Assembly: GCF_026151205.1 (NCBI RefSeq)
Contig: NC_087078.1
Span: 15,517,118-15,581,117 of the forward strand
DNA length: 64,000 nt
Reading direction: 5' to 3'
DNA from: Bolinopsis microptera
Taxonomy: Eukaryota > Ctenophora > Tentaculata > Lobata > Bolinopsidae
The notes beneath the pieces were generated by a model. That model worked only from the letters and a program-made list of their open reading frames with translations. It was not told the DNA's origin and made no database searches. Within the stretch, counting starts at the first letter, position 1. Every line of letters begins with the position of its first letter. This document shows positions 15,497 through 64,000 of the stretch, piece by piece. The position numbers and the translations under genes were made by a program.

Positions 15497-16406
15497 TTCA
15501 GGTCTTCATGAGAGCGGAAGTGACGTTTAGGACTTCGGTGGAGAAGAAGTAATGTGCAGGGCTTCAATAGAGCAGGAGTGACGTTTAGGACTTCGGTGGA
15601 GAAGAAGTAATGTGTAGGGCTTCAATAGCTAGCAGGAGCGACGTTTAGGACTTCAGTAGAGAAGAAGTAATGTGCAGGGCTTCAATAGCTAGCAGGAGTG
15701 ACGTTTAGGACTTCAGTAGAGAAGAAGTAATGTGTAGGGCTTCAATAGCTAGCAGGAGTGACGTTTAGGACTTCAGTAGAGAAGAAGTAATGTGTAGGGC
15801 TTCAATAGCTAGCAGGAGCGACGTTTAGGACTTCAGTAGAGAAGAAGTAATGTGTAGGGCTTCAATAGCTAGCAGGAGTGACGTTTAGGACTTCAGTAGA
15901 GAAGAAGTAATGTGTAGGGCTTCAATAGCTAGCAGGAGCGACGTTTAGGACTTCAGTAGAGAAGAAGTAATGTGTAGGGCTTCAATAGCTAGCAGGAGCG
16001 ACGTTTAGGACTTCAGTAGAGAAGAAGTAATGTGTAGGGCTTCAATAGCTAGCAGGAGTGACGTTTAGGACTTCAGTAGAGAAGAAGTAATGTGTAGGGC
16101 TTCAATAGCTAGCAGGAGTGACGTTTAGGACTTCAGTAGAGAAGAAGTAATGTGTAGGGCTTCAATAGCTAGCAGGAGCGACGTTTAGGACTTCAGTAGA
16201 GAAGAAGTAATGTGTAGGGCTTCAATAGCTAGCAGGAGTGACGTTTAGGACTTCAGTAGAGAAGAAGTAATGTGTAGGGCTTCAATAGCTAGCAGGAGTG
16301 ACGTTTAGGACTTCAGTAGAGAAGAAGTAATGTGTAGGGCTTCAATAGCTAGCAGGAGCGACGTTTAGGACTTCAGTAGAGAAGAAGTAATGTGTAGGGC
16401 TTCAAT
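15497..16406 (+). repeat. 60-bp minisatellite, about 15 copies
   Basis: The monomer is exactly 60 bp from about 15610 onward and contains 'gacgtttaggacttcagtag' and 'gtaatgtgtagggcttcaat'. The first two units are more diverged (cggtgg for cagtag; tagagcagg for tagctagcagg). The inner units are identical except at one site (aggagCg versus aggagTg) and one early gtgCag/gtgTag difference. It ends cleanly at about 16406. No ORF runs through it. Confidence 0.95.
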
Positions 16407-23863: not shown

Positions 23864-26800
23864 TTATACTGAGGCTGACGGATTTTCCACCACATATACC
23901 GCATTATTAGCGGTATTTTTCCCGTTAGTTTGATTGTTCTCTGTCTTGTCCGTTTCATCTCCTTCAGAACTGCGACATTTCGCACAAAAGCCAGGTACAC
24001 AGAGAGGGAAATGTGGAGATTTTCTAAGAGGTTGAATTAGGAAGGAGTCTATCAACATTTGTAGGAGTTGAGCAATAAAACAGGGCAGCAGTATCAGGGC
24101 AGGGTCTCCTGAAAATTAATAAACTATTAATTTAATAAATCAATAAATAATTAATAAATATTAATAAACTATTCACATCTTTCATGACAAAGATGTTTCC
24201 CGTCTAAGGGATACTCCCCCAGGCTTAAAATAAAACCTTAACGATCTTCATAACCGGAGCTGATATATATCATAAAATTAGCAATTCAATTGCTCATTGG
24301 TATCAACTAATAAAATTTCACAAATACGACTAATATAAGAAACTTGAGTTGACTGACCTATTTTGTCGGGAAGCGCTGACGCTATAGCAGCCGGGAGCAC
24401 TAAAGTCTTTTGTGAGCAGAGCAATAGCATTACTGACAGGTGTATCCTGAGAGTAACATGTGGGTTATTAGTAACATTGTAGGAATAGGGTACATTGACA
24501 TGATTAAAATACTTTAAATTATTCGCTGAGATCTTTTCATTCTTTTCTCTCTTGAGTCTTGAGTGGGAAGATCATTGCTGATTACTGACGACAAAATGGC
24601 GAGCCAGGGAATCTCCACTCGCTACGAAACAAAATACATTAGGTGTGCGTGTTTAAATGTACTTTGTTTCATAGCGAGACTCTCATCTCGTCATCGGTAA
24701 TCAATAAATTAACTGAATTCTTCAAATTTCTAACCTCTTAAAACAGAAGGAAACCGAGACAAGGAAATTGAGGAGCAAGAGAAGCAGATGACAGGCTATG
24801 ATTATTCCAATGAGTATAAAGATATCGGTCAACCTGTAAAAAGAGAATCTCATAAATGAGTCATAAATAAATAATAAATCGTTTTATCTAATACTGACAA
24901 CAGTACTACTACTACTAATAATGATAGATAGAAAATTATTGCCTACTAAATAACACTGAATACAGATAGAAAACGAACAATAAATTCCCTGATCTTCCGC
25001 GACAAAAGTACATTTTTATCAAACTAAAAACTCACGCTATCAATTCAAAAGTTCCTTTCTTGATGCTGGTGCTAAGTTTAATCCACAATATGATGACGAT
25101 TCCCATACTTTGAACTAAACCTATTTTCCTTTTGTGGACTTTAACGACCTCTCTCACACGAGCGAACACCATGGACACCACTTTACCTGAGATGCCAAGT
25201 CTTATTTTTAGACATTATAATGACTGAAGAAGTACTGAGAAAATAATTATTTTCTTAATTCACTACGAGCTTAACGAACAGTTTCCATAGATAAATAACA
25301 TTCAGAGGAATTTTTTCTAAAGTGTTTTTAACAAAAGAAAAATTGTTAACCTACAAAAAGTGGTAGTATCAGTGACAATCCCAGTTTCATCACCAGTTTC
25401 GTACTGTCTGCTTTCATGGCCTCTGAAAGTTAACACCTAATTTTAAAGATATACTTCTTGTCTATACCATTTAACGGCTTAGTGGCTCAGTTGGTTAATC
25501 CTCCTGGTATTGCTTGAGGTACCAGGTTCGATTCCCGACTCGGTCACTAGCCGTGGGGTGAGCGTCGTCGACGCTCAGCTAAGGATCCTGAGTGGTCTAT
25601 GCAGCCCCCCGGTCCACTCAGCCAAATACTCGAGAAATCGGGTGTGAGGGTTAAATGAGGAGCTGCCCATTGCAGCAAGTCTCGGGCGAAGAAAGTATGG
25701 TACACACTACCTTAACCGTCACTGGCCTAATGTATAATTGAATCCTTCGGCTTCTTGTAATTGGCTGGTTACACACTTGTGTAACAATGTGGCTGTTGGA
25801 ATGTCCGAAGTAAAATAAGTGTTGAGATTTTTTTTTAAAATTGGCTATACCATTATCTAATATTCTCTTCTATTTCATAATACACAATAACAAACTCTCC
25901 GCTAACTTTGCAAACCACACTAAACGCTTAATGGTGCCAGAGGAGTTGGGCCAGACCGGTGTAACATAGCGACTACTCAAACGCGGTGACCGACAACTAG
26001 GAACCTCTCATTTCGGCCTCCCACAGGTATCACATCACATGGCCCAATCAGTGACGTATCATTTGTGATGTGATCCATATTATAACCATCCTAACAGCCG
26101 GACAACCAAGAACCTGGGTAGGGTTCACATGTCAGTTTAGTAAGTAGCTGTGTATTATGAAGTATATTAAGAAGTGTTTGAGCTCTCGGTATGTGTTCAC
26201 ATTACGGACGTGAGCCGGGTCCGAACGATGTGAGCCGGGTCCGAAAGGGGCTGGTTCTCGTATCCAAGGATGTGAGCCGAGCATGCAATGGGAGTGATAC
26301 GAGACATAAAATCACAAGTGCGGGAGTTGATCAGCTGTTAATATACAACCGCACTTCTGGTATATATACTGAAACGTGAACATGAAGAGTATCGGTTTCA
26401 ATTCAACATGCCTGCTTTCTCCAAATTCATCGAAGGACAGAGAGGATCTCAACAGCTGGTGGACACGGACGGTTACATCTACTCCAGAAAGAAGGCTAAA
26501 GATACAGCCATCCACTCTGCTTGGCGATGCCGGAAGCACAACCCTCCTACCAAGTGTCCCAATCATGCCTACCTCAACCTGTCAGATAACGCTTTATCCC
26601 TTGGCTCCAAACTCCACAACCACCCTGCTGACAACGCTGCACCACAGAAGCGTGAAGTCCTCTCCTCACTGAAGCGGAAAGCTGCTGAACAGCCCTTGTC
26701 GGTGACCCAGAACCTCCTCTCTGAAGTCCTAGCAGATTCAACCTCAGAAGCTAATCAGACGCTACCGAACATGGAATCCCTCGCTCGGGTGGTACAACGC

Positions 26801-29417
26801 AGTAGAGCCAAGGCGTCCGGATCTGCACAGCACTCTGAAGCGAAGACCTCAGAAGAATTCCTCCTCCCATCTACCTGCACCTCCACGAGACGGGACGAGC
26901 CCTTTGTTCTCTTCGACGGAAAGACAGATCGGAACGTACGAGTCGTTGCCTTCTCTACAGCCCGGAACCTTGCTACGCTGGCAGAGTACAACAACTGGAT
27001 TGCAGACGGCACGTTTTACGTCGCCCCGAATATATTCACCCAGAGCTATACGATTCATGCTGTTATTGACCAGAAATGTTTGCCGATGATTTATATTTTG
27101 ACTGGAGATAAGGAAGGGGACACTTATCAGTATATTTTTAATGTGGTGAAGTTCTATTTTGACCAGCATTGTCCGGTTGAAACTGGTACAATAATGATTG
27201 ACTTTGAGAAAGCGGTGATGAATGCGCTTCAGAACAGTTTGCCAGGGTGGGATATCAGCAATTGCTACTTCCATCTCTGTCAAGCTGAACATTTCGAAGA
27301 AGTTTAAAGTTTTATATTATTCTGATAAGATGTTTGCTAGAGCCGCAAAGCTGGTTGTGTTTCTCGCCTTTGTCCCAGTTGCTGATGTTGAGGAGGTGTT
27401 CTACCAAATAACATACTACATCCAAGCTAACTATCCTCAGTTAATGGTTGTGGTAAATTATTTCGAGAAAACCTACCTTTGGTCAGTAACTGTCGACAGT
27501 GAGGAAAGGGTTCCTCCCAAGTTTCCTTTGACGTTCTGGAATCACTATTCCAAGACGTTGGAGGATCCGGAGTTTCCCCGGACCTCTAACATGGTCGAGG
27601 GTTTTCATCGTGGATTTAAATCCAGGGTGAATCGACCCAAGCCGACCGTGCAAGAGTACTTCCGTGCTATTCGGGAGCAGCAGGTGATCACTGATTACCA
27701 TATCGATCTGTTCCAAATACTCGGATTGCTCTAGCAAGGTTGACTATCTGTTTGAGATTGCCAAATACTTTGGCCATGAGATTGATATTGAGTAATGTAT
27801 TCTGTATGTAATTATTATGTTGGGTTTGAACTATCATTATCTTGAAAAAAATCTTTGTCTTAATTAATGAGTGCAGAAATATATACAGCACAGCTGTGAA
27901 ATCGGTGGACACCTGAAAGTTTAAAGTATCTCCAGAGGTTCCTAGTTGTCGGGGATATGTCATGATTGGTTCCTAGTTGTCGGAGCTGATTGGATTTCCC
28001 AAGCTTGCATGTTAATTAGTTAACTAGGTAAAATTGAAAGGTTCCTAGTTGTCCGTCAGCCCTCAAACGCCGTCTTATTTCGCCTCTCTCTTCCACACTC
28101 AACCACCACTTAAGCGTTCATCCATGACACACCCCACAACACTTACCATCATCCTTGATTACACATCTTGATTCCACCGGCATCCTCCCACAGGACTGCC
28201 ATACCCCAGAGGTAGGCAAAGCATCCATATGCTATCCTCTCGTGGGCCGACCAGGCCCAGCCTCTCTAAAAAAATTTAAAAAATTTAAAAGAAAACTCTC
28301 CGCTAAGTTTTGAGTAAAACTCATTTCCGCCCTAATGTTCTACTAGTCAATACTACTGTTGAAACTACTAGGTTGTATTCCAACCTGCGTCTACAAAGAG
28401 TGAGAAGAGAAGAGGAGTAAGGAAACAGCCAGCAAGGTTTGTGATAGTGGAGACAGCCACTGCTACAGCCACGTCACCTTTAGCTCCCGTTACCATGATT
28501 ATACCTTGTAAGGTACAAGGTCAGCACGAGTAGATGTAGATGTTAGAAACTTATGTTCGTGTTTCTATTACATTCGAATGAAAAATGTAAATGTGTTCGT
28601 CGACCGATTTTGGCATTCGGAAAAAGAACAGCTGGTATTAAACTGATAATGTTGGATATGAAGAAAATATGGTCAATCATAATTATTCGGTGAGGAAGTA
28701 TTACCTTATCGGACCTTATTTGGACGGACATTAAGGTGAACGCTAGGGCCTCCAGAGTTCAAGTAATGTCCGTCCAAATAAGGTCCGATAAGGTAGTCCA
28801 ACATACATACCAGTAGCGATAGTAGCAGGAGCACAGTTAAAGAGAATTATCCCAAGTTTCAGTTCATCTGGACCAAATGTAAAGGTTCCGTTGCTTGAGC
28901 CATCTTTCTTATCAAATGGCAACTGGAGCAATGTGTATTTTAAGGATTATAATACAACTAAATGAAATTAAATTTCAGTTTTAACATGAATTCGGATCGG
29001 TTTACTATCAGATATTTTGGGGCAATAAATTCCTAATGTAAACACATACCTGATGAACGATGTATCCTGGAATGAGTGTTGTAATAACCAGTGAAGTAAC
29101 ACAACAAATGATGACAACATCAACTGCCGTGTAGACTGATTTTAGTTCATCTGTCTTCAGCTTTAGTCCTGAAATATGTTAAAATGTTCTCAATTTCATT
29201 CTATAAAGCTGTAATGCAGATATCGTCATGTACACGATTGTTGATTTAAGGTAAGCTGTGAAGCACTGCAACTGAATAGTTATAAAAAATGTGCTGTTTA
29301 CTAGCTTTAAGAATAATTTACCAGTAAAGAAAAATATGACAGCCACAATGCAAAGAGAGACAGTTGAGTTGGACAGTTTGGATCCGGGAAGCGGCCAAGC
29401 AAACGCTAATACTACAG
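23864..29417 (-). CDS. SLC10A7-like (SBF-like) membrane transporter, nine exons found
   Basis: Minus-strand exons, 5' to 3': 29322-29417, 29050-29168, 28811-28922, 28385-28504, 25351-25422, 25036-25186, 24735-24833, 24358-24446, 23864-24108 (TAA stop). Every junction has AG before and GT after the exon, and all phases join without a stop, giving about 367 residues. In order the protein shows 'AFAWPLPGSKL', 'AVIFFFTGLKLKTDEL', 'LGIILFNCAPATIATG', 'AKGDVAVAVAV', 'LILPLFVGKVV', 'CSQKTLVLPAAIAS' and 'LILLPCFIAQLLQMLIDSF', matching the usual order of the PF13593/SLC10A7 family (FFxxGLSLKT, PTTxSS, SQKTL, P...HxxQ). A hydrophilic C-tail of about 50 residues follows. The first exon (about 30-40 residues) is missing. 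The 25.4-28.4 kb intron holds a MULE and a SINE. The substrate cannot be told from sequence. Confidence 0.85.
25475..25844 (+). mobile_element. tRNA-derived SINE, copy 1
   Basis: A box TGGCTCAGTTGG at 25483-25494 and B box GGTTCGATTCC at 25525-25535 have tRNA spacing. A ~280-bp body shared with the copy at 32972 follows, and a T-run tail. Direct repeats 'ctataccatt' at 25462-25471 and 25845-25854 are a plausible target duplication. It lies in the large intron of the SLC10A7-like gene, in antisense orientation to that gene. Confidence 0.88.
25976..28070 (+). mobile_element. MULE (Mutator-like) transposon with TIRs and 9-bp TSD
   Basis: The element runs 25985-28061. Left terminus ggtgaccgacaactaggaac; right terminus, reverse-complemented, ggctgacggacaactaggaa: one indel and one mismatch apart. 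The flanking 'ctcaaacgc' at 25976-25984 and 28062-28070 is an exact 9-bp duplication, the usual MULE size. Extra copies of 'ggttcctagttgtc' occur at about 27936 and 27970, so the right end has repeated termini. It sits in an intron of the SLC10A7-like gene. Its transposase gene is on the plus strand. Confidence 0.92.
26408..27795 (+). pseudogene. FLYWCH-MULE transposase, frame-shifted
   Basis: The first frame (26408-27307) holds an N-terminal FLYWCH zinc finger at residues 22-73 (GYIYSRKKA, W39-R-C41, C50, H70-N-H72). A MULE transposase core follows, with D200 in ADGTF, D265 in IDFEKA and the CYFHLCQ block at 286-292. Between about 27275 and 27300 the frame shifts. The second frame continues 'KKFKVLYYSDKMF' through 'TSNMVEGFHRGFKSR', which includes the likely third acidic residue. 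Near 27715-27745 two more shifts are needed to reach 'VDYLFEIAKYFGHEIDIE' and the TAA at 27793-27795. Such proteins cut and join the element ends. This copy is broken in at least three places, unless some are assembly indels. Confidence 0.88.
28071..28384. other. Intron sequence between MULE and exon 28385-28504
   Basis: Non-coding. Includes the 5' splice donor of the exon at 28385 (minus-strand GTTGGA, GT but weak at +3). Nothing else is recognised. Confidence 0.45.
28702..28795. mobile_element. Hairpin MITE, 32-bp perfect arms
   Basis: Arms 28702-28733 and 28764-28795 are exact inverted repeats (starting taccttatcggaccttattt) around a 30-base loop. The element lies in an intron of the SLC10A7-like gene, about 15 bases from the minus-strand 5' splice site after the exon 28811-28922. 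Diverged relatives of the arm sequence occur at 36253-36352. Confidence 0.75.
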
Positions 29418-32384: not shown

Positions 32385-33496
32385 CTGACCGTCAAATTCG
32401 AAGTTAACAAGTGGGAGTTGTCTCCAAATGCTATTTCCAAAACTGAGTACTGTAACATTATCATGGGGATACGGAGATATAACTGCCCCACTATTAACTC
32501 AAGGAATATTGAGTTTGTTGACTCAAATATAAAACTTAAATTTTTACATTCTGTAACTGGACAGGTGAAGGGAAGTAAAATTCGGGATAAAATGTACGAC
32601 TCTATCTGCCCAAACGAGCTGTCCCCATTACGTCAATGGGTTATTGACCTAAATAATCAACCAATAGATTGGGCGGTCGTTCTTAGCAACCTATTTTTCT
32701 TAGTATCTAAAAATTTTAAGTTGATTCAATTTCAGTACAAGCTTTTAATGAGGATCACGACGTGTAGATACATGAGACACAAAATGAAAATTGTTACAGA
32801 TACTCCCATGTGTAGCCTGTGTAACACATACTTAGAAACAATCCCTCATATCTATCTCCATTGTATCCACACAAATAGCTTCATCACAATACTTGAAGAC
32901 TTTATAAAAAGGAAAATCGATAGAAATTACAAAGACCCCAATAAAATTAATTTTATAGTTTGTAATAACGGCCAGGTAGCGCAGTTGGTTAGAACACCAG
33001 TCTTACAATCGTTAGGTTGCGAGTTCGAATCCCACTGTCTGCCTGGTCGTGGGGTGAGCGTCGTCGACGTTCAGCTAAGGATTGTAAGTGGTCTATGCAG
33101 CCCCCCGGTCTACTCAGCCGAATACTCGAGAAATCGGGTGTGAGGGTTAAATGAGGAGCTGCACATTGCAGCAAAGTCTCGGGCGAAGAAAGTATGGTAA
33201 ACACTACCTTAACCGTCACTGGCCAAATAAATCCTTCGGCTTCCTGTAATTGGCTGGTTGCACTTGTGTAATGTGGCTGTTGGAATACACCGAAGTAAAA
33301 TAAGTGTCTTGATAAAAAAAATCACACTTCACAAATTATAAATTATTTTAATATTGTTGCCAAATGGTACATTAGCAAAAGATTTCAGGCAGGGGACATG
33401 CCGATCTGGCAGGGATATATCAAACTTCTTAAACTTTCACTTACTGGTGACAAAATAGGCCACAAAAGTTCTATTGTGTCGATCTTGGCCGATTAG
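32385..33496 (+). pseudogene. LINE ORF2 C-terminus with zinc-binding motif, split by a SINE
   Basis: An open frame from about 32385 to 32971 reads 'FQYKLLMRITTCRYM', then 'CSLCNTYLETIPHIYLHC', i.e. CxxC...E...H....C of the zf-RVT type found at the C-terminus of many LINE ORF2 proteins. It is interrupted by a SINE at 32972. Coding resumes after it at about 33340: 'FNIVAKWYISKRFQ', 'WQGYIKLLKLSLTGDKIG', ending at a TAG (33494-33496), as expected for the ORF2 tail. The 5' part (endonuclease and RT core) is absent, consistent with 5' truncation on insertion. Confidence 0.8.
32972..33325 (+). mobile_element. tRNA-derived SINE, copy 2
   Basis: Same family as the copy at 25475. A box TAGCGCAGTTGG at 32977-32988 and B box AGTTCGAATCC at 33022-33032. 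The shared body includes 'gtcgtcgacg', 'gcagccccccggtc' and 'actcgagaaatcgggtgtga'. It ends in 'aagtgtcttgat' plus an A-run. Its insertion interrupts a LINE reading frame. I could not identify a clear target duplication. Confidence 0.88.
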
Positions 33497-36680: not shown

Positions 36681-37009
36681 ATTTGACCAAAACCCATAAT
36701 CATGGGTAGAGTGTACCGCTGCCAGTGTCTCTCTTTTCCAAACAAAAGGAAATGATATTAATTTGAGGAACAGTCCGCTAATGCAAATTGATACCGAGAA
36801 TGAAATCGGTCGCTCGCTTTTTCAAATCAATAAGCTTTATTACAATTCGTGAGCCGTGATCGAATGGAAAAAGCGAGCGACCGATTTCATTCTCGGTATC
36901 AATTTGCATTAGCGGACTGTTCCTCAAATTAATATCATTTCCTTTTGTTTGGAAAAGAGAGACACTGGCAGCGGTACACTCTACCCATGATTATGGGTTT
37001 TGGTCAAAT
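36681..37009. repeat. Giant palindrome HP1
   Basis: Arms of about 142 bp (36681-36822 and 36868-37009) around a ~45-base centre, with ends atttgaccaaaacccataat / its inverse. I see essentially no mismatch between the arms. First of four related palindromes. Confidence 0.92.
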
Positions 37010-38029
37010 ATCATCTCTTTTTGATTATAATGTCAGGATAATTTACACAGCTAGTCGAAACTTCATTAACAAGGAGGTAATTTCGACGATTTCGAAATTC
37101 TGCCTTTGAAAACGTTTCCTTGTGTTTAGTTAGGTATATCTGTCGATAACCGACTGAATATGGCACTTTTTACTCATTCAAGTTGGCATTAAATTCATAG
37201 ATAATGCCATTTAAATATCGTGGAAAGCAGAATATATTCGAAATCACGAATGAGCAAAATTCTCACCTTTCGCACGTGCAAACTTTGAGCGGACGTTGCG
37301 TGCGCATACAATATTGAATCACCGTAAATTTTTGCATAGTGGTATTTAATATATAGTTTGATAAGCATGCGATGTTTCAGAAGATTTCAAAAAGAACTTG
37401 GATCACAACGGGACTCCAAAGTTGATAAAAATCGTGAAAATCAAAATTTTTAGTGACTTTAGCTATTTTAAATCAATTTGGGCGTGTCCCCACGTGTGAA
37501 ACTTTTCGATTTTTAACTTTAAAACTGGCCTATAACACAATTTACACCTTTAAGAAGCAAAATTGAGCTCCACAACCCAAGGGATAGCCCAACACCAGAG
37601 AATACTGATTCACAACTTTTGTGTTTTTATAAAATTATTCTTCAAAAAAGCACTAACTTCAATAGCAAATATCTTTATGAAGGAGTAAGGTAGGAAACTT
37701 TTCCGGTAGATTTTTAGAATGCTTGAACAATTATCTAAGGTGAAAATGTCCTCAGATTTTGAATAAAATTACTCTTTAATGGTGTAAAATCGATTTGAAA
37801 AGTTGTTGTTTTGTCAAAAATCAAGTTTTAAAAACACTTAAATTGATGACGTCATCAAGTGATGATGATGATTATAAATTATTTTTCAATATAAAGTAAA
37901 GTAAAGTATAAACGATTATCTTTAAAACCTGTGGTTCGAAATGACTGTATCTTTTATACTTTTGAATCTACGGACACTTAAATGTAGGCTACAATTGACT
38001 GCAAAAAGCGTCTATACATATTATTATAT
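37010..38029 (+). repeat. Spacer S1 of the palindrome array
   Basis: Begins 'atcatctctttttgattata' and ends '...gcgtctatacata'. Repeated as S2, S3 and inverted as S4. Contains the 16-bp perfect palindrome ttgatgacgtcatcaa at 37843-37858 and 'gtgcgcat'-rich words. No significant ORF. Confidence 0.88.
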
Positions 38030-38389
38030 ATTTGACCAAAACCCATAATCATGGGTAGAGTGGACCGCTGCCAGTGTCTCTCTTTCCCAAACAAAAGGCA
38101 ATGATATCAATTCGAATGACCGTTATCAAATGCAAAATGATACCGAGAATGAAATCGGTCGCTCGCTTTTCCCACTCATTCATGGCTTACGAATTGTAAT
38201 AAGTTTCGATTTATAACATGTAATCTATTTCAATTGTAAATGAATGGGAAAAGCGAGCGACCGATTTCATTCTCGGTATCATTTTGCATTTGATAACGGT
38301 CATTCGAATTGATATCATTGCCTTTTGTTTGGGAAAGAGAGACACTGGCAGCGGTCCACTCTACCCATGATTATGGGTTTTGGTCAAAT
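38030..38389. repeat. Giant palindrome HP2
   Basis: Same layout as HP1 but the most diverged: the interior reads 'caattcgaatgaccgttatc' on the left and its exact inverse on the right. Centre about 60-70 bases. Confidence 0.92.
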
Positions 38390-39480
38390 ATCATCTCTTT
38401 TTGATTATTATAATGTCAGGGTACTTTACAAAGCCGAAATGTAAACTCATAACTTCATTAATCTGACTAATTGGGATTTAAACTCTTGAACTTCATTAAT
38501 ATTAATAAGGAGGTGATTTCAACGATTTCAAAATTTTTCCTTTAAAAATATTTCCTTGTGTTTAGGTAAGCATATCGCGATTGGTCGATCACTGACTGAA
38601 TATGCCACTTTATACTCAATTCATATATAATGACATTGAACTGTCGTGGCAAAGCAGAATTTGTTCAAAATCACGAATGAGCAAAATTTTAACCTTTCGC
38701 ACGTGCAAACCTTGAGCGGAAGTTGCGTGCGCATCCAATATTGAATCACCGTAAATTTTTACATAATGGTGTTTTATATATAGTTTGATAAGCATGCAAA
38801 GTTTCAAAGTATTTCAAGAAGAACTGTAATCACAACGGCACTCCAAAGTTGACGGAAATTGGTGAAAACAGCAATTTTCAGTGATTTTAGCAATTTTCTA
38901 TCAATTTGGGCGTGACCCCACGTGTGCAACTTTTTGATTTTCAACTTTAAAACTAGCCTATGACACAATTTAGACCTATAGGAAGCAAAATTGAGCTCCA
39001 CAACCCAAGGGATGGTGCAACACCAGAGAATACTAGAACGTAAAATTAGCGTTTTTATAAAATTATTCTTTAAAAAAGCACTAACTTCAACAGCGAATAT
39101 CTTTATGAAGGAGCAAGCTAGAAAAACTTTCCGGTAGATTTTCAGAATGCTTAAACAATTATCTAACTTCAATAAGCCCTCAAATTTTGAATAAAATTAC
39201 TCCTTAATGGCGTAAAATCGATTTAAAAAATGATTACTTTGTGAAAAATCAAGTTTTAAAAATGGTTAACTTGATGACGTCATCAAGTGGTGATGATGAC
39301 GTTGAATTACTTTTTAACATAATGTAAACTAAAGTCTAAACAATTATCTTCAAGACCTGTGGTCCGAAATGGCTGTATCTTTAAAGCTTCTGAATCTACG
39401 GACACCTAAATATAGCCTATAATTGACTGGCAAAGCGTCTATCCCTGAATATATATATGTATATGTATATGTATATATAT
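38390..39480 (+). repeat. Spacer S2 of the palindrome array
   Basis: Diverged copy of S1, matching HP2 in being the most diverged unit. Retains the palindrome ttgatgacgtcatcaa (39271-39286). Ends in a (tatatg)n tract. Confidence 0.85.
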
Positions 39481-39809
39481 ATTTGACCAAAACCCATAAT
39501 CATGGGTGGAGTGAACCGCTGCCAGTGTCTCTCTTTTCCAAACAAAAGAAAATGATATTAATTTAAGGAACCGTCCGCAAATGCAAATTGATACCGAGAA
39601 TGAAATCGGTCGCTCGCTTTTCCCATTCAATAAGCTTTATTACAATACGTAAGCCGTGAATGAATGGGAAAAGCGAGCGACCGATTTCATTCTCGGTATC
39701 AATTTGCATTTGCGGACGGTTCCTTAAATTAATATCATTTTCTTTTGTTTGGAAAAGAGAGACACTGGCAGCGGTTCACTCCACCCATGATTATGGGTTT
39801 TGGTCAAAT
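39481..39809. repeat. Giant palindrome HP3
   Basis: 329 bp, near-perfect arms, close to HP1 and HP4 in sequence. The left-arm variant 'gggtggagtgaacc' is matched by 'ggttcactccaccc' on the right. Confidence 0.92.
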
Positions 39810-40810
39810 ATCATCTCTTTTTGATTATAATGTCAGGATAATTTACACAGTCGAAACTTAATAAGGAGGTAATTTCAACGATTTCGAAATTTTACCTTTG
39901 AAAACGTTTCCTTGTGTTTAGGTAGGCATATCTGTCAATAACAGACTGAATATTGCACTTTTTACTCATTCAAGTTGGCATTAAATTCATATATAATGCC
40001 ATTTAAATATCGTGGGAAAGCAGAATATATTCGAAATCACGAATGAGCAAAATTCTCACCTTTCGCACGTGCAAACTTTGAGCGGACGTTGCGTGCGCAT
40101 AAAATATTGAATCACCATAAATTTTTGTATAGTGGTATTTAATGTATAGTTTGATAAGCATGCAAAGTTTCAGAAGATTTCAAAAAGAACTTGGATCACA
40201 ACGGGACTCCAAAGTTGGTAAAAATCGTGAAAATAACAATTTTCAGTGATTTTAGCTATTTTAAATCAATTTGGGCGTGTCCCCACGTGTGCAACTTTTA
40301 GATTTTCAACTTTAAAACTAGCCTATAACACAATTTAGACCTTTAAGAAGCAAAATTGAGCTCCACAACCCAAGGGATGGCCCAACACCAGAGAATACTA
40401 ATTCACAACTTTTGTGTTTTTATAAAATTATTCTTCAAAAAAGCACTAACTTCAATAGCGAATATCTTTATGAAGGAGCAAGGTAGGAAACTTTTCCGGT
40501 AGATTTTCAGAATGCTTGAACAATTATCTAAGGTGAAAATGTCCTCAAATTTTGAATAAAATTACTCCTTAATGGTGTTAAATCGATTTGAAAAGTTGTT
40601 ATTTTGTCAAAAATCAAGTTTTAAAAACACTTAACTTGATGACGTCATCAAGTGATGATGATGACGTTAAATTATTTTTCGATATAATGTAAACTAAAGT
40701 ATAAACGATTATCTTTAAAACATGTGGTTCGAAATGACTGTATCTTTTATACTTTTGAATCTACGGACACTTAAATGTAGGCTACAATTGACTGCAAAAG
40801 CGTCTATATA
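39810..40810 (+). repeat. Spacer S3 of the palindrome array
   Basis: Close copy of S1, again with ttgatgacgtcatcaa at about 40636-40651, ending 'gcaaaagcgtctatatat'. Confidence 0.88.
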
Positions 40811-41245
40811 TATCACAATGCTGGCAAGCATAACCGTTGCCCTTATATTCACAACACTATGTACCCCCTATACTATTATATCCCCTTTATTGTTTTCCAG
40901 GCATTAAGACTCATCGAAAGTAGTTCAGCAGGTATATTTAAGTTCAAAACATTCTAATTCAATGTTAAAGATGACAGGAATAAGAAATAGTTATGTGGAG
41001 GTTTTTAAGAAATTTGCGCAAAATACGCGCCAGCATGTTATACGAAATTAGGTAAAAAACCCAAAATCGCCATATTCAGGTCCCTTAAAAACCATGTTAA
41101 AATCGAGTTAGAGATCTGAAACTTTGCAGAGCGTCTAGACCTTGTCCAAATCGACTGTAAAAAAAATTTCATGTTGCAGGAATATCGGGAAGTGGGTTTT
41201 CTGGAACCCCTGTTTTACAACAGATTGTCGTGAAGCTATATATGT
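40811..41245 (+). repeat. Junction segment J, copy 1
   Basis: About 425 bp from 'tcacaatgctggcaagcata' to 'acaatctgttgtaaaac' (in inverse) 'gtgaagc'. Two inverted relatives occur at 43029-43557 and 43559-43983. It has a short frame starting ATGCTGGCAAGC with a hydrophobic, signal-peptide-like stretch ending at 'ttttccag', but this is not conserved between the copies. Confidence 0.75.
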
Positions 41246-41270
41246 ATATATATATGTATATATGTATAGA

Positions 41271-42263
41271 CGCTTTTGCAGTAAATTGTACCCTACATTT
41301 AAGTGTCCGTAGATTCAAAAGTATAAAAGATACAGTCATTTCGAACCACAGGTTTTAAAGATAATTGTTTAAACTTTAGTTTACATTATATCGAAAAATA
41401 ATTTATCGTCATCATCATCACTCGATGACGTCATCAATTTAAGTGTTTTTAAAACTTGATTTTTGACAAAATAACAACTTTTCAAATCGATTTTAAAGCA
41501 TTAAGGAGTAATTTTATTCAAAATCTGAGGACATTTTCATCTTAGATAATTGTTCAAGCATTCTGAAAATCTACCGGAAAGTTTTCCTACCTTGCTCCTT
41601 CATAAAGATATTCGCTATTGAAGTTTGTGCTTTTTTGAAGAATAATTTTATAAAAACACAAAAGTTGTGAATTAGTATTCTCTGGTGTTGGGCCATCCCT
41701 TGGGTTGTGGAGCTCAATTTTGCTTCCTAAAGGTCTAAATTGTGTTATAGGCTAGTTTTAAAGTTGAAAATCGAAAAGTTGCACACGTGGGGACACGCCC
41801 AAATTCATTTAAAATAGCTAAAATCACTAAAAATTGTTATTTTCACGATTTTTACCAACTTTGGAGTCCCGTTGTGATCCAAGTTCTTTTTGAAATCTTC
41901 TGAAACTTTTCATGCTTATCAAACTATATATTAAATAACACTATGCAAAAATTTATGGTGATTCAATATTTTATGCGCACGCAACGTCCGCTTAAAGTTT
42001 GCACGTGCGAAAGGTGAGAATTTTGCTCATTCGTGATTTCGAATATATTCTGCTTTCCCACGATATTAAAATGGCATTATATATGAATTTAATGCCAACT
42101 TGAATGAGTAAAAAGTGCTATATTCAGTCTGTTATTGACAGATATGCCTACCTAAACACAAGGAAACGTTTTCAAAGGTAAAATTTCGAAATCGTTGAAA
42201 TTACCTCCTTATTAAGTTTCGACTGTGTAAATTATCCTGACATTATAATCAAAAAGAGATGAT
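41271..42263 (-). repeat. Spacer S4, inverted copy
   Basis: Reverse complement of S1/S3: begins 'agacgcttttgcagtaaatt' and ends 'aaaaagagatgatatttgac'. The CRE-like palindrome is present with one changed base (cgatgacgtcatca). Confidence 0.88.
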
Positions 42264-42590
42264 ATTTGACCAAAACCCATAATCATGGGTAGAGTGAACC
42301 GCTGCCAGTGTCTCTCTTTCCAAACAAAAGAAAATGATATTAATTTGAGGAACCGTCCGCAAATGCAAATTGATACCGAGAATGAAATCGGTCGCTCGCT
42401 TTTCCCATTCATTCACGGCTTACGTATTGTAATAAAGCTTATTGAATGGGAAAAGCGAGCGACCGATTTCATTCTCGGTATCAATTTGCATTTGCGGACG
42501 GTTCCTCAAATTAATATCATTTTCTTTTGTTTGGAAAGAGAGACACTGGCAGCGGTTCACTCTACCCATGATTATGGGTTTTGGTCAAAT
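42264..42590. repeat. Giant palindrome HP4
   Basis: About 327 bp, near-perfect arms. The left arm reads 'gggtagagtgaacc', the right arm the exact inverse. It is followed by a (TA)n tract that carries the retrozyme insertion. Confidence 0.92.
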
Positions 42591-42686
42591 ATATATATAT
42601 ATATCAGTGGCGCGGCGTTGGGCTAGCAATCGCAAGGTTGCTGGATCAATACCCGCCATCGGCAAAACCAACCTTGATGATTTGAG

Positions 42687-42729
42687 CCATACTGATGAGT
42701 CCTAATAGGACGAAACACTGTGTCTATGG
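42687..42729 (+). ncRNA. Type I hammerhead ribozyme, copy 1
   Basis: Core CTGATGA at 42692-42698, stem II GUCC/GGAC with loop UAAUA, then GAAA at 42712-42715. Stem III is only 3 bp (ACA/UGU) with loop CUG. Cleavage is predicted after C42724 (GUC triplet). Stem I is CCAUA (42687-42691) with UAUGG (42725-42729). All conserved core bases are present. Such a short stem III normally favours cleavage as a dimer of two hammerheads, which fits the second copy 277 nt away. Confidence 0.95.
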
Positions 42730-42876
42730 ATAAATATGCTCGCCTAGTTTACTAAGCTTGAGCACTCTAGGGAATGACTAGATCTACCGCTCAGCTTAAA
42801 TGCAAAGCTCCTAACTTGTAATGAGTTTGTAGAGCACTCTGGTACCTATGTAATTCCCTCATTATTAAGGCCTTGG

Positions 42877-42930
42877 TGGCCCAGTGGCGCGGCGTTGGGC
42901 TAGCAATCGCAAGGTTGCTGGATCAATACC
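42877..42930 (+). promoter_or_regulatory. Internal Pol III type 2 promoter of the retrozyme
   Basis: A box TGGCCCAGTGG (42877-42887) fits TRGCnnAGYnGG-type sites. B box GGATCAATACC (42920-42930) fits GWTCRAnnC. The spacing is tRNA-like. Copy 1 of the element begins at CAGTGG, just inside the A box, and so lacks its first half. Confidence 0.7.
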
Positions 42931-42963
42931 CGCCATCGGCAAAACCAACCTTGATGATTTGAG

Positions 42964-43006
42964 CCATACTGATGAGTCCTGATAGGACGAAACACTGTGT
43001 CTATGG
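42964..43006 (+). ncRNA. Type I hammerhead ribozyme, copy 2
   Basis: Identical to copy 1 except loop II (UGAUA for UAAUA): CTGATGA at 42969-42975, GUCC/GGAC stem II, GAAA, ACA/UGU stem III, predicted cleavage after C43001, stem I CCAUA/UAUGG. The variable base lies in a loop and leaves all stems paired. Confidence 0.95.
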
Positions 43007-43028
43007 ATATATCATATATATATATATA

Positions 43029-43557
43029 TATGCTTCACGACAATCTGTTGTAAAACAGGGGTTCCAGAAAACCCACTTCCCGATACTCCTGAAACCTGAA
43101 ACTTTTTTTGCAGTCGATTTGGTCAACGTCTAGACGCCCTGAAAAATTTCAGATCTCTAACTCAATTTTAACATGGTTTTTTATAAGGCACCTGAATATG
43201 GCGATTTTGGGTTTTTTACCTAATTTCGTATAACATGCTGGCGCGTATTTTGCGCAAATTTCTTAAAAATCTCAACATAACTATTTTTTATTCCTGTCAT
43301 CTTTGACATCAAATTAGAATGTTTTGAACTAAAAATAAATCTGCTGAACGACTTCCGATGAGTCTTAATGCCTGAAAAACTCCTGCCGGAGGCGGCGGCC
43401 TTCGGCCGCCGCCTCCGGCCGGAGTGCACGCTTCGCGTGCACGAAAGAGGCTTCCAACGTGTACCAAAGGGGTTGTAATAGTAAAGGGGTGTAATAGTAA
43501 AGGGGGTACATAGTATTCCCCCAATAAAGACACCGCTCGTGCTTGCCAGCACTGTGA
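43029..43557 (-). repeat. Junction segment J', inverted, with GC-rich insert
   Basis: Inverted relative of J, from 'cttcacgacaatctgttgta' to 'gtgcttgccagcactgtga'. Unlike the other two copies it carries about 90 extra bases (43380-43470) made of two adjacent GC-rich hairpins. Overlapping minus-strand frames are artefacts. Confidence 0.78.
43385..43440. repeat. Tandem GC-rich hairpins with TTC loops
   Basis: First hairpin: 16-bp arms gccggaggcggcggcc / ggccgccgcctccggc with loop TTC (43386-43420). Second: arms gtgcacgc / gcgtgcac, loop TTC (43424-43442). Absent from the matching position of J and J'', so it is a discrete insertion. Confidence 0.85.
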
Positions 43558-43558
43558 T

Positions 43559-43983
43559 CTTCACGACAATCTGTTGTAAAACAGGGGTTCCAGAAAACCC
43601 ACTTCCCGATACTCCTGAAACATGAAATTTTTTTTACTGTCGACTTGGACAAGGTCTAGACGCCCTGCAAAGTTTCAGATCTCTAACTCAATTTTAACAT
43701 GGTTTTTAGGGCACCTGAATATGGCGATTTTGGGTTTTTTACCTAATTTCGTATAACATGCTGGCGCGTATTTTGCGCAAATTTCTTAAAAACCTCCATA
43801 TAACTATTTCTTATTCCTGTCATCTTTAACATTGAATTAGAATGTTTTGAACTTAAATGTACCTGCTGAACTACTTTCGAAAAAGTCTTAATGCCTGGAA
43901 AACAATAAAGGGGATATAATAGTATAGGGGGTAAATAGTATTGTGAATATAAGGGCGACGGTAATGCTTGCCAGCATTGTGAT
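43559..43983 (-). repeat. Junction segment J'', inverted
   Basis: Second inverted copy of J, without the GC-rich insert, ending 'gccagcattgtga' at the right edge of the composite array. Closer to J than J' is. Confidence 0.78.
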
Positions 43984-44545
43984 AATACCTGCTTTTTGGA
44001 AACAATTTTTTATTTGACCACCTCCGACCTCGGTCCTGCATTTCAGTGTTAACCTTTACAAGATGTCAGTGGTGCACGCCGCCGCCGAACGCCGCCGAGT
44101 TTTTGCTCACGCCGCCACGCCGAAGAATAAATTAGCGGCGGCGTGAAAGTTAACTTTCAATTGTATTTTGAGGATTTTGAAATATCTTCCATCGGTAAAA
44201 TTAAATTAATTTCTTGCCACCACGTTTGACTGTCAGTTTTGCTGCTCGTATGACGTTGTACTTGTGGTAACATTCGCCCGTGTCCTTGGCTCCAGTGGCA
44301 GTACGAGTACTCGACTACGAGACTATAAACGGTTTTAAGGACTGTAATTATTCACCGCCCTTAATCGGTATTAGCTCGAAATTTCTTTGACTATTTATTG
44401 AATTTTATGCATAAACTTTGTGCTCCGATCAGTATTGGGCTGATTCGTACTTGGCCCTTCGATTTATCAGCGCTAGAATTTGATCGTTCTGTAACACTAA
44501 CTGTAAGCTGCCATACTAATTTCGCTAGCATTGATTATTTTTCCC
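43983..44545 (+). repeat. ~0.5 kb dispersed repeat, copy A
   Basis: From 'taatacctgctttttggaaa' through 'gtggtgcacgccgccgcc', 'aagaataaattagcggcgg' and 'ctgtcagttttgctgctcgt' to 'gaatttgatcgttctgtaac'. Copy B is at 50104-50614. The mirrored GCCGCC...GGCGGC words could form a stem. The 77-codon frame at 44398 has no recognised domain. Confidence 0.8.
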
Positions 44546-55392: not shown

Positions 55393-55492
55393 NNNNNNNN
55401 NNNNNNNNNNNNNNNNNNNNNNNNNNNNNNNNNNNNNNNNNNNNNNNNNNNNNNNNNNNNNNNNNNNNNNNNNNNNNNNNNNNNNNNNNNNN
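55393..55492. other. Assembly gap (100 N)
   Basis: Exactly 100 N, the usual placeholder for a gap of unknown size. Confidence 1.
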
Positions 55493-57185: not shown

Positions 57186-60100
57186 CAACAACAACAACTA
57201 CTGCTACTAACTGTACTACTACTGTACTACTACTACTAACTGTACTACTACTGTACTACTACTACTAACTGTACTACTACTGTACTACTGCTACTAACTG
57301 TACTACTACTGTACTACTACTACTAACTGTACTACTACTGTACTACTTCTACTAACTGTACTACTACTGTACTACTGCTACTAACTGTACTACTGCTACT
57401 AACTGTACTACTACTACTAACTGTACTACTGCTACTAACTGTACTACTACTAACTGTACTACTAATGTACTACTGCTACTAACTGTACTACTACTACTAA
57501 CTGTCTATACTACTAACTGTACTACTACTACTAACCTGTACTACTACTGTACTACTACTACTACTGTACTACTACTGTACTACTACTACTAACTGTACTA
57601 CTACTGTACTACTGCTACTAACTGTACTACTACTACTACTAACTGTACTACTACTGTACTACTACTACTAACTGTACTACTACTCCTACTACTGTTCTAC
57701 TACTGTACCTACTACTACTAATGTACTACTTACTGTACTACTGCTACTAACTGTACTACTACTACTACTAACTGTACTACTACTGTACTACTGCTACTAA
57801 CTGTACTACTACTGTACTACTGCTACTAACTGTACTACTACTGTACTACTGCTTCTAACTGTACTACTACTGTACTACTGCTATAACTGTAACTACTGCT
57901 ACTAACTGTCTACTAACTGTACTACTTACAGTACTACTACTTACTAAACTGTACTACTGACTACTACTAACTGTACTACTACTGTACTACTACTACTAAC
58001 TGTACTACTACTGTACTACTGCTACTAACGTGTACTACTACTGTACTACTGCTACTAACTGTACTACTACTGTACTACTGCTACTAACTGTACTACTACT
58101 ACTACTAACTGTACTACTACTGTACTACTACTACTAACTGTACTACTACTGTACTACTACTACTAACTGTACTCCTACTGTACTACTGCTACTAACTGTA
58201 CTACTACTACTAACTATCTACTACTGCTGTACTACTACTACTAACTGTACTACTACTGTACTACTGCTACTAACTGTACTACTACTGTACTACTGCTACT
58301 AACTGTACTACTACTGTACTACTGCTACTACACTGTACTATGCTACTAACTGTACTACTAACCTGTACTACTACTGTACTACTACTACTAACTGTACTAC
58401 TACTACTACTAACTGTACTACTACTGTACTACTACTACTAACTGTACTACTACTGTACTACTACTACTAACTGTACTACTACTGTACTACTGCTACTAAC
58501 TGTACTACTACTGTACTACTGCTACTAACTGTACTACTACTGTACTACTACTACTAACTGTACTACTACTGTACTACTACTGCTACTAACTGTACTACTG
58601 CTACTAACTGTACTACTACTGTACTACTGCTACTAACTGTACTACTACTGTACTACTGCTACTAACTGTACTACTGCTACTAACTGTACTACTACTGTAC
58701 TACTACTACTAACTGTACTACTACTGTACTACTACTACTAACTGTACTACTTCTGTACTACTGCTAATAACTGTACTACTACTACTATCTGTACAACTAC
58801 TGTACTGCTACTACTAACTGTACTACTACTGTACTACTACTACTAACTGTACTACTACTGTACTACTGCTACTAACTGTACTACTACTGTACTACTGCTA
58901 CTAACTGTACTACTAACTGTACTACTACTACTACTAACTGTACTACTACTGTGCTACTGCTACTAACTGTACTACTACTACTACTAACTGTACTACTACT
59001 GTACTACTACTACTAACTGTACTACTACTGTACTACTGCTACTAACTGTACTACTGCTACTAACTGTACTACTACTGTACTACTGCTACTAACTGTACTA
59101 CTACTACTAACTGTATACTACTGTACTACTACTAACTGTACTACTACTGTACTACTACTACTAACTGTACTACTACTGTACTACTACTACTAACTGTACT
59201 ACTACTGTACTACTGCTACTAACTGTACTACTACTGTACTACTACTACTAACTGTACTACTACTGTACTACTGCTATTAACTGTACTACTACTGTACTAC
59301 TACTACTAACTGTACTACTACTACTAACTGTACTACTACTGTATTACTACTACTAACTGTACTACTACTGTACTACTGCTACTAACTGTACTACTACTGT
59401 ACTATTACTACTAACTGTACTACTACTGTACTACTACTACTAACTGTACTACTACTGTACTACTGCTACTAACTGTACTACTACTGTACTACTACTACTA
59501 ACTGTACTACTACTGTACTACTGCTACTAACTGTACTACTACTGTACTACTGCTACTAACTGTACTACTACTGTACTACTGCTACTAACTGTACTACTGC
59601 TACTAACTGTACTACTACTGTACTACTGCTACTAACTGTACTACTACTACTAACTGTACTACTACTGTACTACTACTAACTGTACTACTACTGTACTACT
59701 ACTACTAACTGTACTACTACTGTACTAACTACTACTAACTGTACTACTACTGTACTACTGCTACTAACTGTACTACTACTGTACTACTACTACTAACTGT
59801 ACTACTACTGTACTACTGCTATTAACTGTACTACTACTGTACTACTACTAACTAACTGTACTACTACTACTAACTGTACTACTACTGTATTACTACTACT
59901 AACTGTACTACTACTGTACTACTGCTACTAACTGTACTACTACTGTACTATTACTACTAACTGTACTACTACTGTACTACTACTACTAACTGTACTACTA
60001 CTGTACTACTGCTACTAACTGTACTACTACTGTACTACTACTACTAACTGTACTACTACTGTACTACTGCTACTAACTGTACTACTACTACTAACTGTAC

Positions 60101-63100
60101 TACTGCTGTACTACTACTACTAACTGTACTACTACTGTACTACTGCTACTAACTGTACTACTACTGTACTACTGCTACTAACTGTACTACTACTGTACTA
60201 CTGCTACTAACTGTACTACTGCTACTAACTGTACTACTAACTGTACTACTACTGTACTACTACTACTAACTGTACTACTACTACTACTAACTGTACTACT
60301 ACTGTACTACTACTACTAACTGTACTACTACTGTACTACTACTACTAACTGTACTACTACTGTACTACTGCTACTAACTGTACTACTACTGTACTACTGC
60401 TACTAACTGTACTACTACTGTACTACTACTACTAACTGTACTACTACTGTACTACTACTGCTACTAACTGTACTACTGCTACTAACTGTACTACTACTGT
60501 ACTACTGCTACTAACTGTACTACTACTGTACTACTGCTACATACTGTACTACTGCTACTAACTGTACTACTACTGTACTACTACTACTAACTGTACTACT
60601 ACTGTACTACTACTACTAACTGTACTACTGCTGTACTACTGCTACTAAACTGTACTACTACTTACTATCTGTACTACTACTGTACTACTACTACTAACTG
60701 TACTACTACTACTACTAACTGTACTACTACTGTACTACTACTACTACTGTACTACTACTGTACTACTACTACTAACTGTACTACTACTGTACTACTGCTA
60801 CCTAACTGTACTACTACTGTACTACTGCTACTAACTGTACTACTACTGTACTACTACTACTAACTGTACTACTACTGTACTACTACTGCTACTAACTGTA
60901 CTACTGCTACTAACTGTACTACTACTGTACTACTGCTACTAACTGTACTACTACTGTTACTACTGCTACTAACTGTACTACTGCCTACTAACTGTACTAC
61001 TACTGTACTACTACTACTAACTGTATACTATTCTACCTATAACTGTATATTCTTATATTACTAATGCATACACTCTGTACTTATTTCTTTATACAACTTA
61101 CTCTATTACATTACTCTGAATATGTCTATTCTAAAATGTCTCTCTGTTACTCTATAAAATACAACTTTACTATATCTATAAGTACTACTACTGTTACTTA
61201 AATGTATATATTATAACTTACTATATGATACTACTACAAGTCTACTATGTATATCTACTAATGTTATCCCCTAATGTACTATACGTACTATGCTACTAAC
61301 GTATCTACTTAACTGACTACTACTGTTCATAACTTATACTTGTATACTACTATAACTGTAACTACGTATCTATATAACTGTACTATACTGTACTACTGTA
61401 CTAACTGTATACTACTGTTATACTATAAGTATATTGTACTATGTATTAACTGTACTATACGTACTACTTAAACGTTTATACTATAATTACTACTAGTATT
61501 ACTACTACTAACTGTATCTACTGTACTACTGCTACTAACTGTACTACTACTGTACTATTACTACTAACTGTACTACTACTGTACTACTACTACTAACTGT
61601 ACTACTACTGTACTACTGCTACTAACTGTACTACTATGTACTACTACTACTAACTGTACTACTACTGTACTACTGCTACTAACTGTACTACTACTGTACT
61701 ATGCTACTAACTGTACTACTACTGTACTACTGCTACTAACTGTACTACTGCTACTAACTGTACTACTACTACTAACTGTACTACTACTGTACTACTACTA
61801 CTAACTGTACTACTACTACTACTAACTGTACTACTAATTGTAATACTGCTACTAACTGTACTACTACTACTAACTGTACTACTACTACTACTAACTGTAC
61901 TACTACTGTACTACTACTACTAACTGTACTACTACTGTACTACTACTACTAACTGTACTACTAATGTACTACTGCTACTAACTGTACTACTACTACTACT
62001 AACTGTACTACTACTGTACTACTACTACTAACTGTACTACTACTACTACTACTAACTGTACTACTACTGTACTACTACTACTAACTGTACTACTTCTGTA
62101 CTACTGCTACTAACTGTACTACTACTACTATCTGTACTACTACTGTACTACTACTACTAACTGTACTACTACTACTAACTGTACTACTACTGTACTACTA
62201 CTACTAACTGTACTATACTGTACTACTACTACTAACTGTACTACTACTGTACTACTGCTACTAACTGTACTACTACTGTACTACTGCTACTAACTGTACT
62301 ACTACTGTACTACTACTACTGTACTACTAACTGTACTACTACTGCTACTAACTGTACTACTGCTACTAACTGTACTACTACTGTACTACTGCTACTAACT
62401 GTACTACTACTGTACTACTGCTACTAACTGTACTACTGCTACTAACTGTACTACTACTGTACTACTACTACTAACTGTACTACTACTATACTACTACTAC
62501 TAACTGTACTACTTCTGTACTACTGCTACTAACTGTACTACTTCTACTATCTGTACTACTACTGTACTGCTACTACTAACTGTACTACTACTGTACTACT
62601 ACTACTAACTGTACTACTACTGTACTACTGCTACTAACTGTACTACTACTGTACTACTGCTACTAACTGTACTACTAACTGTATACTACTACTACTAACT
62701 GTACTACTACTGTGCTACTGCTACTAACTGTACTACTACTACTACTAACTGTACTACTACTGTACTACTACTACTAACTGTACTACTACTGTACTACTGC
62801 TACTAACTGTACTACTGCCACTAACTGTACTACTACTGTACTACTGCTCTAACTGTACTAACTACTACTAACTGTACTACTACTGTACTACTACTAACTA
62901 CTACTACTGTACTACTACTACTAACTGTACTACTACTGTACTACTACTACTAACTGTACTACTACTGTACTACTGCTACTAACTGTACTACTACTGTACT
63001 ACTACTACTAACTGTACTACTACTGTCCTACTGCTATTAACTGTACTACTACTGTACTACTACTACTAACTGTACTACTACTACTAACTGTACTACTACT

Positions 63101-64000
63101 GTATTACTACTACTAACTGTACTACTACTGTACTAACTGTACTAACTGACTACTACTGTTACTTACTACTAAACTGTACTACTACTGTACTACTACTACT
63201 AACTGTACTACTACTGTACTACTGCTACTAACTGTACTACTACTGTACTACTACTACTAACTGTACTACTACTGTACTACTGCTACTAACTGTACTACTA
63301 CTGTACTACTGCTACTAACTGTACTACTACTGTACTACTGCTACTAACTGTACTATGCTACTAACTGTACTACTATATTGTACTATACTGTATACTATAA
63401 AAACTGTTATATATCAAACTGTACTATAATTGTAATATGAAAAATGTATATATATAAGTACTATTATAAAATGTTACTACGTCTACTATCAATGTTATAT
63501 GTACTATACTATAACGTATACTTGTATACGCTACTAACTGTATAAATTACTACTAATTACTATACTGTCTACTATATAATGTATTACATATTAACGTACT
63601 ATAGTAATTAAAAAGTACTATTGTACTACTATACTAACTGTATATACTGTAAAATGTTTAACTTTTACTAATATAAAAATGTATATGTGTACTACTATTA
63701 ACGTTTATTGTATACTGTATAATGTTTACTGTTTGATAATGTACTTATGTATATGCTAAAACTTTTAATGCTATAACTGACTATAAGTATAAAAGTACTT
63801 ATAAAAACTGTACTATATATACTAATGTATATAGTACTAAAATTAATGTACTACTACTGTATCTATATAAGTATTTACTTATATGTTAATTTACTACCTG
63901 TATATGTACTAACTGTATTCTATGTACTTTTTTATACAAAACCTGTATATAGTATTATGCTACTAATTAATGCTATAACTGTCATACTGTACTATGCTAC
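57186..64000 (+). repeat. CTG/TAC satellite array, right
   Basis: A large array whose commonest period is 29 bp, made of ctgtactactac + tgtactactg + ctactaa, with shorter 12-15 bp variants interleaved and GCT/ACT exchange at one place. It is clean at about 57190-61020 and 61500-63360. At about 61020-61500 and from 63370 to the window end it is riddled with indels and A/T changes. The plus strand is nearly free of G outside CTG/GCT. No coding frame is credible. Same family as 6641-10800; the array runs off the right end. Confidence 0.95.

Follow-up and report, generated by a model that had tools for sequence, protein, structure and literature searches.

The tandem sequence at 42605-43013 of the window, by which we mean the whole 64-kb stretch of DNA that was analysed, raises the question of what kind of element carries two hammerhead ribozymes together with tRNA-like promoter boxes, and from what template it was copied. 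The first-pass annotation had placed two type I hammerheads exactly 277 bases apart, and this arrangement was borne out both by the matches of the two copies to the Rfam model RF00163 and by a direct repeat of 131 bases (42605-42735 and 42882-43012) with a spacing of 277 and 98% identity. Two mismatches separate the repeat copies, one in loop 2 (42704) and one at the edge of the insertion (42733). The element represents a tandem of approximately 1.47 units, the left edge of which lies at 42605 or 42606 and the right edge within 43006-43013, the ambiguity arising from the TA sequence. It was matched once in the 64-kb window by BLAST.

The interval between the two predicted cleavage sites had been described as a complete monomer lacking an open reading frame, and our analysis agrees with this description: 42725-43001 is a unit of 277 nt, and the longest stop-to-stop frame in the doubled unit is only 51 amino acids. 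A protein-coding tandem repeat was ruled out, since no frame exceeds this length. The GC content of the unit is 46.6%, and no run of four or more T was found in it. Metazoan non-LTR retrozymes, as characterized in section 13 of PMC7229834, are built of tandem repeats, 150-450 bp in size, in which the hammerhead is of type I and the GC content is below 50%, and are devoid of LTR, PBS and PPT; according to the published description, their target-site duplications, when present, exceed 4 bp. The type I hammerhead, the size and tandem arrangement of the unit, its base composition and the lack of an ORF were all found in the present element, which resembles the retrozymes of coral, mussel and axolotl treated in the same source in these features and also in its self-paired RNA. 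We consider it likely that the element is a metazoan-type non-LTR retrozyme in which a SINE-like head derived from a tRNA is combined with a type I hammerhead and a structured, non-coding body, and, with the same degree of confidence, that it is a non-autonomous retroelement. The coordinates of its parts are listed in Table 1.

Table 1. Positions in the window of the element, its predicted parts and its candidate flanking signals
Feature	Position	Strand	Basis or remark
Whole inserted element	42605..43013	+	Direct repeat (spacing 277) and flank comparison
Unit between the two predicted cleavage sites, 277 nt	42725..43001	+	
tRNA-derived head of the first unit, without its first 12 nt	42605..42664	+	A box incomplete; B box at 42643
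Hammerhead type I, copy 1; predicted cleavage after C 42724	42685..42731	+	RF00163, 35.9 bits; stem parse
Body, from ribozyme to next tRNA-like head	42732..42869	+	Without ORF; without TTTT
tRNA-derived head of the second unit	42870..42941	+	RF00005 positions 1-71, 15.5 bits; box matches
A box of the second-unit head	42877-42887	+	TGGCCCAGTGG
B box of the second-unit head	42920-42930	+	GGATCAATACC
Hammerhead type I, copy 2; predicted cleavage after C 43001	42962..43008	+	RF00163, 32.4 bits; stem parse
Candidate left target-site duplication, ATATATC	42599..42605	+	Within TA tract; weak
Candidate right target-site duplication, ATATATC	43007..43013	+	Simple repeat; weak
First run of at least four T downstream of either head; candidate Pol III terminator	43103..43109	+	Outside the element

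In the covariance-model scan that had been proposed as a check of the interval (Rfam type I hammerhead, gathering score 34), copy 1 scored over the cut-off (E 2.6e-05 in a 64-kb scan) and copy 2 just under it (E 9e-06 in a 1.6-kb scan), in support of the ribozyme assignment. Our parse of the stems likewise agrees with the GTC site and the stem lengths that had been reported for both copies. Each of them contains a 5-bp stem I (CCATA/TATGG), the CTGATGA motif, a 4-bp stem II (GTCC/GGAC), GAA, a 3-bp stem III (ACA/TGT, with the loop CTG), C17 and the GTC site. The core bases are intact in both ribozymes, the difference at 42704 being confined to loop 2. By letter reading, stem I of copy 1 is prolonged outwards by four further base pairs (ATTT/AAAT), which the edge of the insertion has changed in copy 2. 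A chance hammerhead was ruled out by the E value of copy 1 and the recurrence of the identical core 277 nt further on. Each copy specifies an RNA that can probably cut itself.

In folding calculations, the linear RNA of the unit reached -90.7 kcal/mol (z, -2.81), and one of 200 shuffled sequences was at least as stable. The circular unit reached -85.9, which was equalled by none of 100 shuffles, and 67% of its bases were paired versus a shuffle mean of 60%, with one of the 100 shuffles attaining 67%. In the nearest-neighbour model, which leaves out tertiary contacts, the best fold of each ribozyme with its flanks, as well as that of the circular unit, contains another hairpin and not the hammerhead. 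When taken from two copies, the stem III strands pair at -7.5 kcal/mol, and the stem III hairpin has an energy of 0.0. Section 8 of a review (PMC7761336) states that hammerheads with a weak stem III act in a dimeric mode, and the modelled intermolecular pairing of stem III fits this mode; according to the same section, the monomer suffices for efficient cutting in most type I hammerheads of invertebrates.

The presence of A and B boxes in the element, another feature of the earlier reading, holds for the second unit, where the pair is complete, and fails for the first unit, where the A box is incomplete: TGGCCCAGTGG lies at 42877, and GGATCAATACC at 42643 and 42920. Matching was based on a relaxed consensus of the A and B boxes, taken as general background, to which the boxes at 42877 and 42920 conform exactly. 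This relaxed pair was found three times on the plus strand of the window and not at all on the minus strand, whereas a simulated 64-kb strand contains 0.22 such pairs on average. A strict pair, the A-box pattern of which was composed after the sequence had been seen, was matched once when both strands of the window were scanned, and 60 simulated strands of 64 kb contained no match. The other two relaxed-pair matches, at 25483 and 32977, resemble the heads of other SINEs. They belong to two related tRNA-headed SINE-like sequences (25475-25850 and 32970-33300), which carry TGGCTCAGTTG / TAGCGCAGTTG with GTTCGA boxes and have a common body containing TTCGGCTTC.

Against the Rfam tRNA model, 42870-42941 was aligned over all 71 positions with a score of 15.5 bits, the curated cut-off being 29 (the E value of 0.71 for this alignment refers to all families and 141 bases), and the head did not appear in the Rfam listing of the 1.6-kb scan, in which E values up to 1 were included. 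ARAGORN with default settings detected no tRNA in the window or in the doubled unit, and the single tRNA that it reported in the doubled unit once introns were permitted and the threshold was lowered had a 176-nt intron and was judged to be spurious. On the basis of these results for the window and the doubled unit, an intact tRNA gene was ruled out. The second-unit head is degenerate, with an anticodon loop that is AGC-type by letter reading. From its sequence, we read the head as a degenerate, tRNA-derived one; the earlier proposal of a tRNA-type internal promoter is supported by the exact boxes and the end-to-end alignment, although the score of this alignment remains below the curated value.

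The anatomy of the left end bears on what this copy could transcribe. The head of the first unit would start at 42593; the element starts 12 nt inside it, at 42605, and the first A box was therefore broken by the insertion end. The sole intact A box is that of the second unit, downstream of ribozyme 1. If Pol III started at the intact head and ended near 43103, the transcript would contain one ribozyme and would release no 277-nt piece. The cutting of such pieces from this copy's own transcript, as had been suggested, cannot be deduced from the anatomy, since ribozyme 1 precedes the intact A box and the first run of four or more T beyond this box is at 43103; 277-nt pieces would therefore need read-through from upstream, use of the first head despite its damage, or copies elsewhere. 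The present copy is probably a poor source, its first A box having been removed by the insertion end.

Comparison of the flanks revealed how the element is placed in its surroundings. Similarity between the block 41260-42604 and 40813-39467 (97.4%) extends up to the start of the element and stops there, and 42999-43380 matches 41271-40892 at 91.4%. The element is absent from all five other related block ends examined in the window, three of which are TA-rich (about 38014-38031, 39440-39482 and 41236-41271) and two of which are not. Since the element interrupts a TA tract and is missing from related flanks in the window, we conclude that it is an insertion. A tRNA-derived SINE is expected to start at its head and to finish in a tail, for instance an A-rich one or a short repeat; the present element starts within the head, as described above, and ends in TA sequence, which is the target as well. 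The sequence is unbroken across the predicted cut site of unit 1. Because the copied sequence crosses this site, copying must have proceeded on a circle or on a multimer that had not been cut.

Several other structures were observed around the insertion. The region 36681-43984 is an array of locally duplicated blocks (approximately 1.35 kb and 0.5 kb) in both orientations, partly with TA-rich tracts between them. At 42262-42592 lies a palindrome resembling a fold-back MITE, the 150-nt arms of which show 100% complementarity and enclose a loop of 31 nt; it has relatives at 39475-39814, 38025-38394 and 36681-37014. A GC-rich near-palindrome is located at 43379-43425 within the first 0.5-kb repeat block, and the block copy at 43559-43984 shows no alignment across it.

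If the element is a retrozyme, its life cycle may be pictured as follows. Source copies with several units would be transcribed by Pol III from the internal boxes, and no internal T run would stop the polymerase. The RNA would be cut at each GUC, probably by two ribozymes paired via the self-complementary stem III (ACACUGUGU), and a host ligase would join the 277-nt pieces into circles. A borrowed reverse transcriptase, from a Penelope-like element or a LINE, would then copy either the continuous circle or an uncut multimer, and copying past the cleavage junction into TA-rich DNA would generate an insertion of 1.47 units.

In a variant of this scheme that concerns the template only and is compatible with the identity of the element as a retrozyme, the RNA to be copied would be not a circle but a linear Pol III transcript that spans the units of an array and has not been cut; the ribozyme would merely trim the RNA and would be dispensable for movement. 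The left end of the insertion lies 12 nt inside the predicted start of the head, close to the presumed start of Pol III transcription, and a random end would fall this close in approximately 5% of cases; this position mildly favours a linear template, but it is a single insertion end (n = 1). Parts of a study on a Penelope-like element of Anolis (PMC11167929) point in the same direction, reporting that ribozyme mutants had no effect on insertion in vitro and suggesting that unprocessed RNA is the dominant substrate. Against this, studies on animal retrozymes favour circles, as presented in sections 13, 14 and 17 of PMC7229834, where the retrozymes of coral, mussel and axolotl are described as accumulating in circular form. 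We regard a linear template as possible, if somewhat doubtful.

Two further alternatives concern the element itself. Its A and B boxes might be a chance resemblance in an ordinary retrozyme transcribed by read-through, a reading that would accord with the tRNA score under the cut-off, with the frequency of relaxed pairs in simulated strands given above and with the statement of a 2020 review, in the portion cited here (PMC7761336), that retrozymes seem to be promoterless and may depend on read-through. It appears unlikely, however, given that the alignment to the tRNA model extends over its entire length and that the strict pair is rare and located inside the very unit concerned. The element could also be a decayed satellite-like fragment, that is, a dead hammerhead repeat which was carried by duplication of the blocks around it and is now immobile and silent. 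The surroundings do consist of local duplicated blocks, and the presence of only about 1.47 units and the damage to the first promoter would be in line with such decay. However, the repeat units differ just at 42704 and at the edge position 42733, the core bases are all intact in both units, and sister blocks within the window lack the element, all of which makes such decay improbable. We regard the element as a genuine insertion of retrozyme-like character, with a head that we take to be tRNA-derived.

Among known systems, the plant LTR retrozymes (PMC4918200; section 8 of PMC7761336) are likewise non-autonomous, with dimeric hammerheads and an expected circular RNA. As described there, they have units of approximately 700 bp with type III hammerheads, LTRs, PBS and PPT, in contrast to the 277-nt unit and type I hammerhead found here, and a plant LTR retrozyme was ruled out by hammerhead type and size. 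Penelope-like elements with hammerheads share the tandem type I hammerheads (PMC11167929; section 8 of PMC7761336). According to these texts, they encode a reverse transcriptase and an endonuclease and are a proposed source of reverse transcriptase, whereas the present element codes for nothing. While retrozymes seem promoterless in the cited portion of PMC7761336, the element contains a tRNA-like head.

In this last respect, the closest likeness is to the Sm-alpha and Sj-alpha elements of Schistosoma (Ferbeyre 1998, Laha 2000), which are known here through PMC2576457, PMC2770079 and PMC4918200 and are likened to the present element by description only. They too are small repeats of animal genomes that combine a type I hammerhead with A and B boxes for Pol III and with a tRNA sequence. 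PMC2576457, citing Ferbeyre 1998, states that schistosome genes bearing hammerheads contain the A and B boxes that Pol III requires, and PMC2770079 terms Sm-alpha and Sj-alpha SINE-like with hammerheads. In the consulted parts of the 2016 retrozyme paper (PMC4918200), the schistosome repeats are named as an exception among metazoan repeats in containing a full tRNA; the text identifies it as Gln, a figure legend as Glu. The head of the present element differs from this Gln/Glu tRNA in being degenerate, with the AGC-type anticodon loop noted above. Schistosome W elements carry hammerheads as well, polymerase III being unmentioned in the main text of PMC8490949, and the portions of PMC10886601, PMC6962438 and PMC8490949 that were consulted added nothing on tRNA-headed retrozymes. 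No tRNA-headed retrozyme outside schistosomes was recognized among the literature matches listed, in a search that covered few subscription papers.

Searches for relatives were made in viral and prokaryotic collections, from which records of the window's own genome may have been excluded, and absence from them therefore says little. Exact scans for 38 bases of the ribozyme and its flank (viral contigs) and for 24 bases (viral contigs) and 21 bases (prokaryotic genome contigs) of the tRNA-like head returned no hit, and a distant blastn search of the element against 50,697 phage records gave no match. A 25-base ribozyme-core pattern was found in eight stretches of viral contigs and five of prokaryotic genome contigs. 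When these 13 stretches were compared with the doubled unit by BLAST, they shared only matches of 25-35 bases at the ribozyme and nothing more, and two of them were matched by Rfam at gathering scores, one as a pistol ribozyme (L002) and the other as a type III hammerhead (L012).

The window contains other repeats and several frames with matches to protein domains. A 60-bp satellite at 15519-16406 consists of 14.8 copies with 98% matching, which suggests that the array is young, and a 6.2-kb array of ACT-type units at 57197-63397 has far more C than G on the plus strand. Simple repeats and inverted-repeat elements are also present, and 100 N at 55393-55492 probably mark a scaffold gap. Of the 22 frames that are 120 amino acids or longer, 10 were compared with Pfam, and five of these 10 were matched: a MULE transposase with a FLYWCH finger, a BTB domain and a major-facilitator transporter, together with a rhodopsin-like receptor and a reverse-transcriptase zinc domain, both under the cut-off. 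Taken with the simple repeats and the inverted-repeat elements, these matches suggest that the DNA is from an animal. The MULE transposase frame occupies 26342-27307, ending at 27307, and a shorter frame at 1049-1465 has part of its peptide in common with it.

The earlier suggestion that the coupling of a hammerhead with a tRNA-type promoter might define a new family is weakened by the schistosome precedents in the cited texts (PMC2576457, PMC4918200). Because schistosome hammerhead elements have Pol III boxes and a tRNA sequence, the combination is a known one, and the present element is most likely another example and not a new kind. It is of value as a further example and for its insertion ends, from which the choice between a circle and an uncut multimer as the template may be addressed. 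Rather tentatively, and at a probability that we consider low, the element may represent a second animal lineage, outside the schistosomes, in which a SINE head and a hammerhead were joined independently, with a Pol III promoter of its own inside the circle. If this is true, each reverse-transcribed full unit would bring its promoter with it, which would explain the continued transcription of seemingly promoterless retrozymes. A tRNA-type promoter within a circular retrozyme unit would render transcription self-contained and amenable to testing and would link the retrozymes to SINEs.
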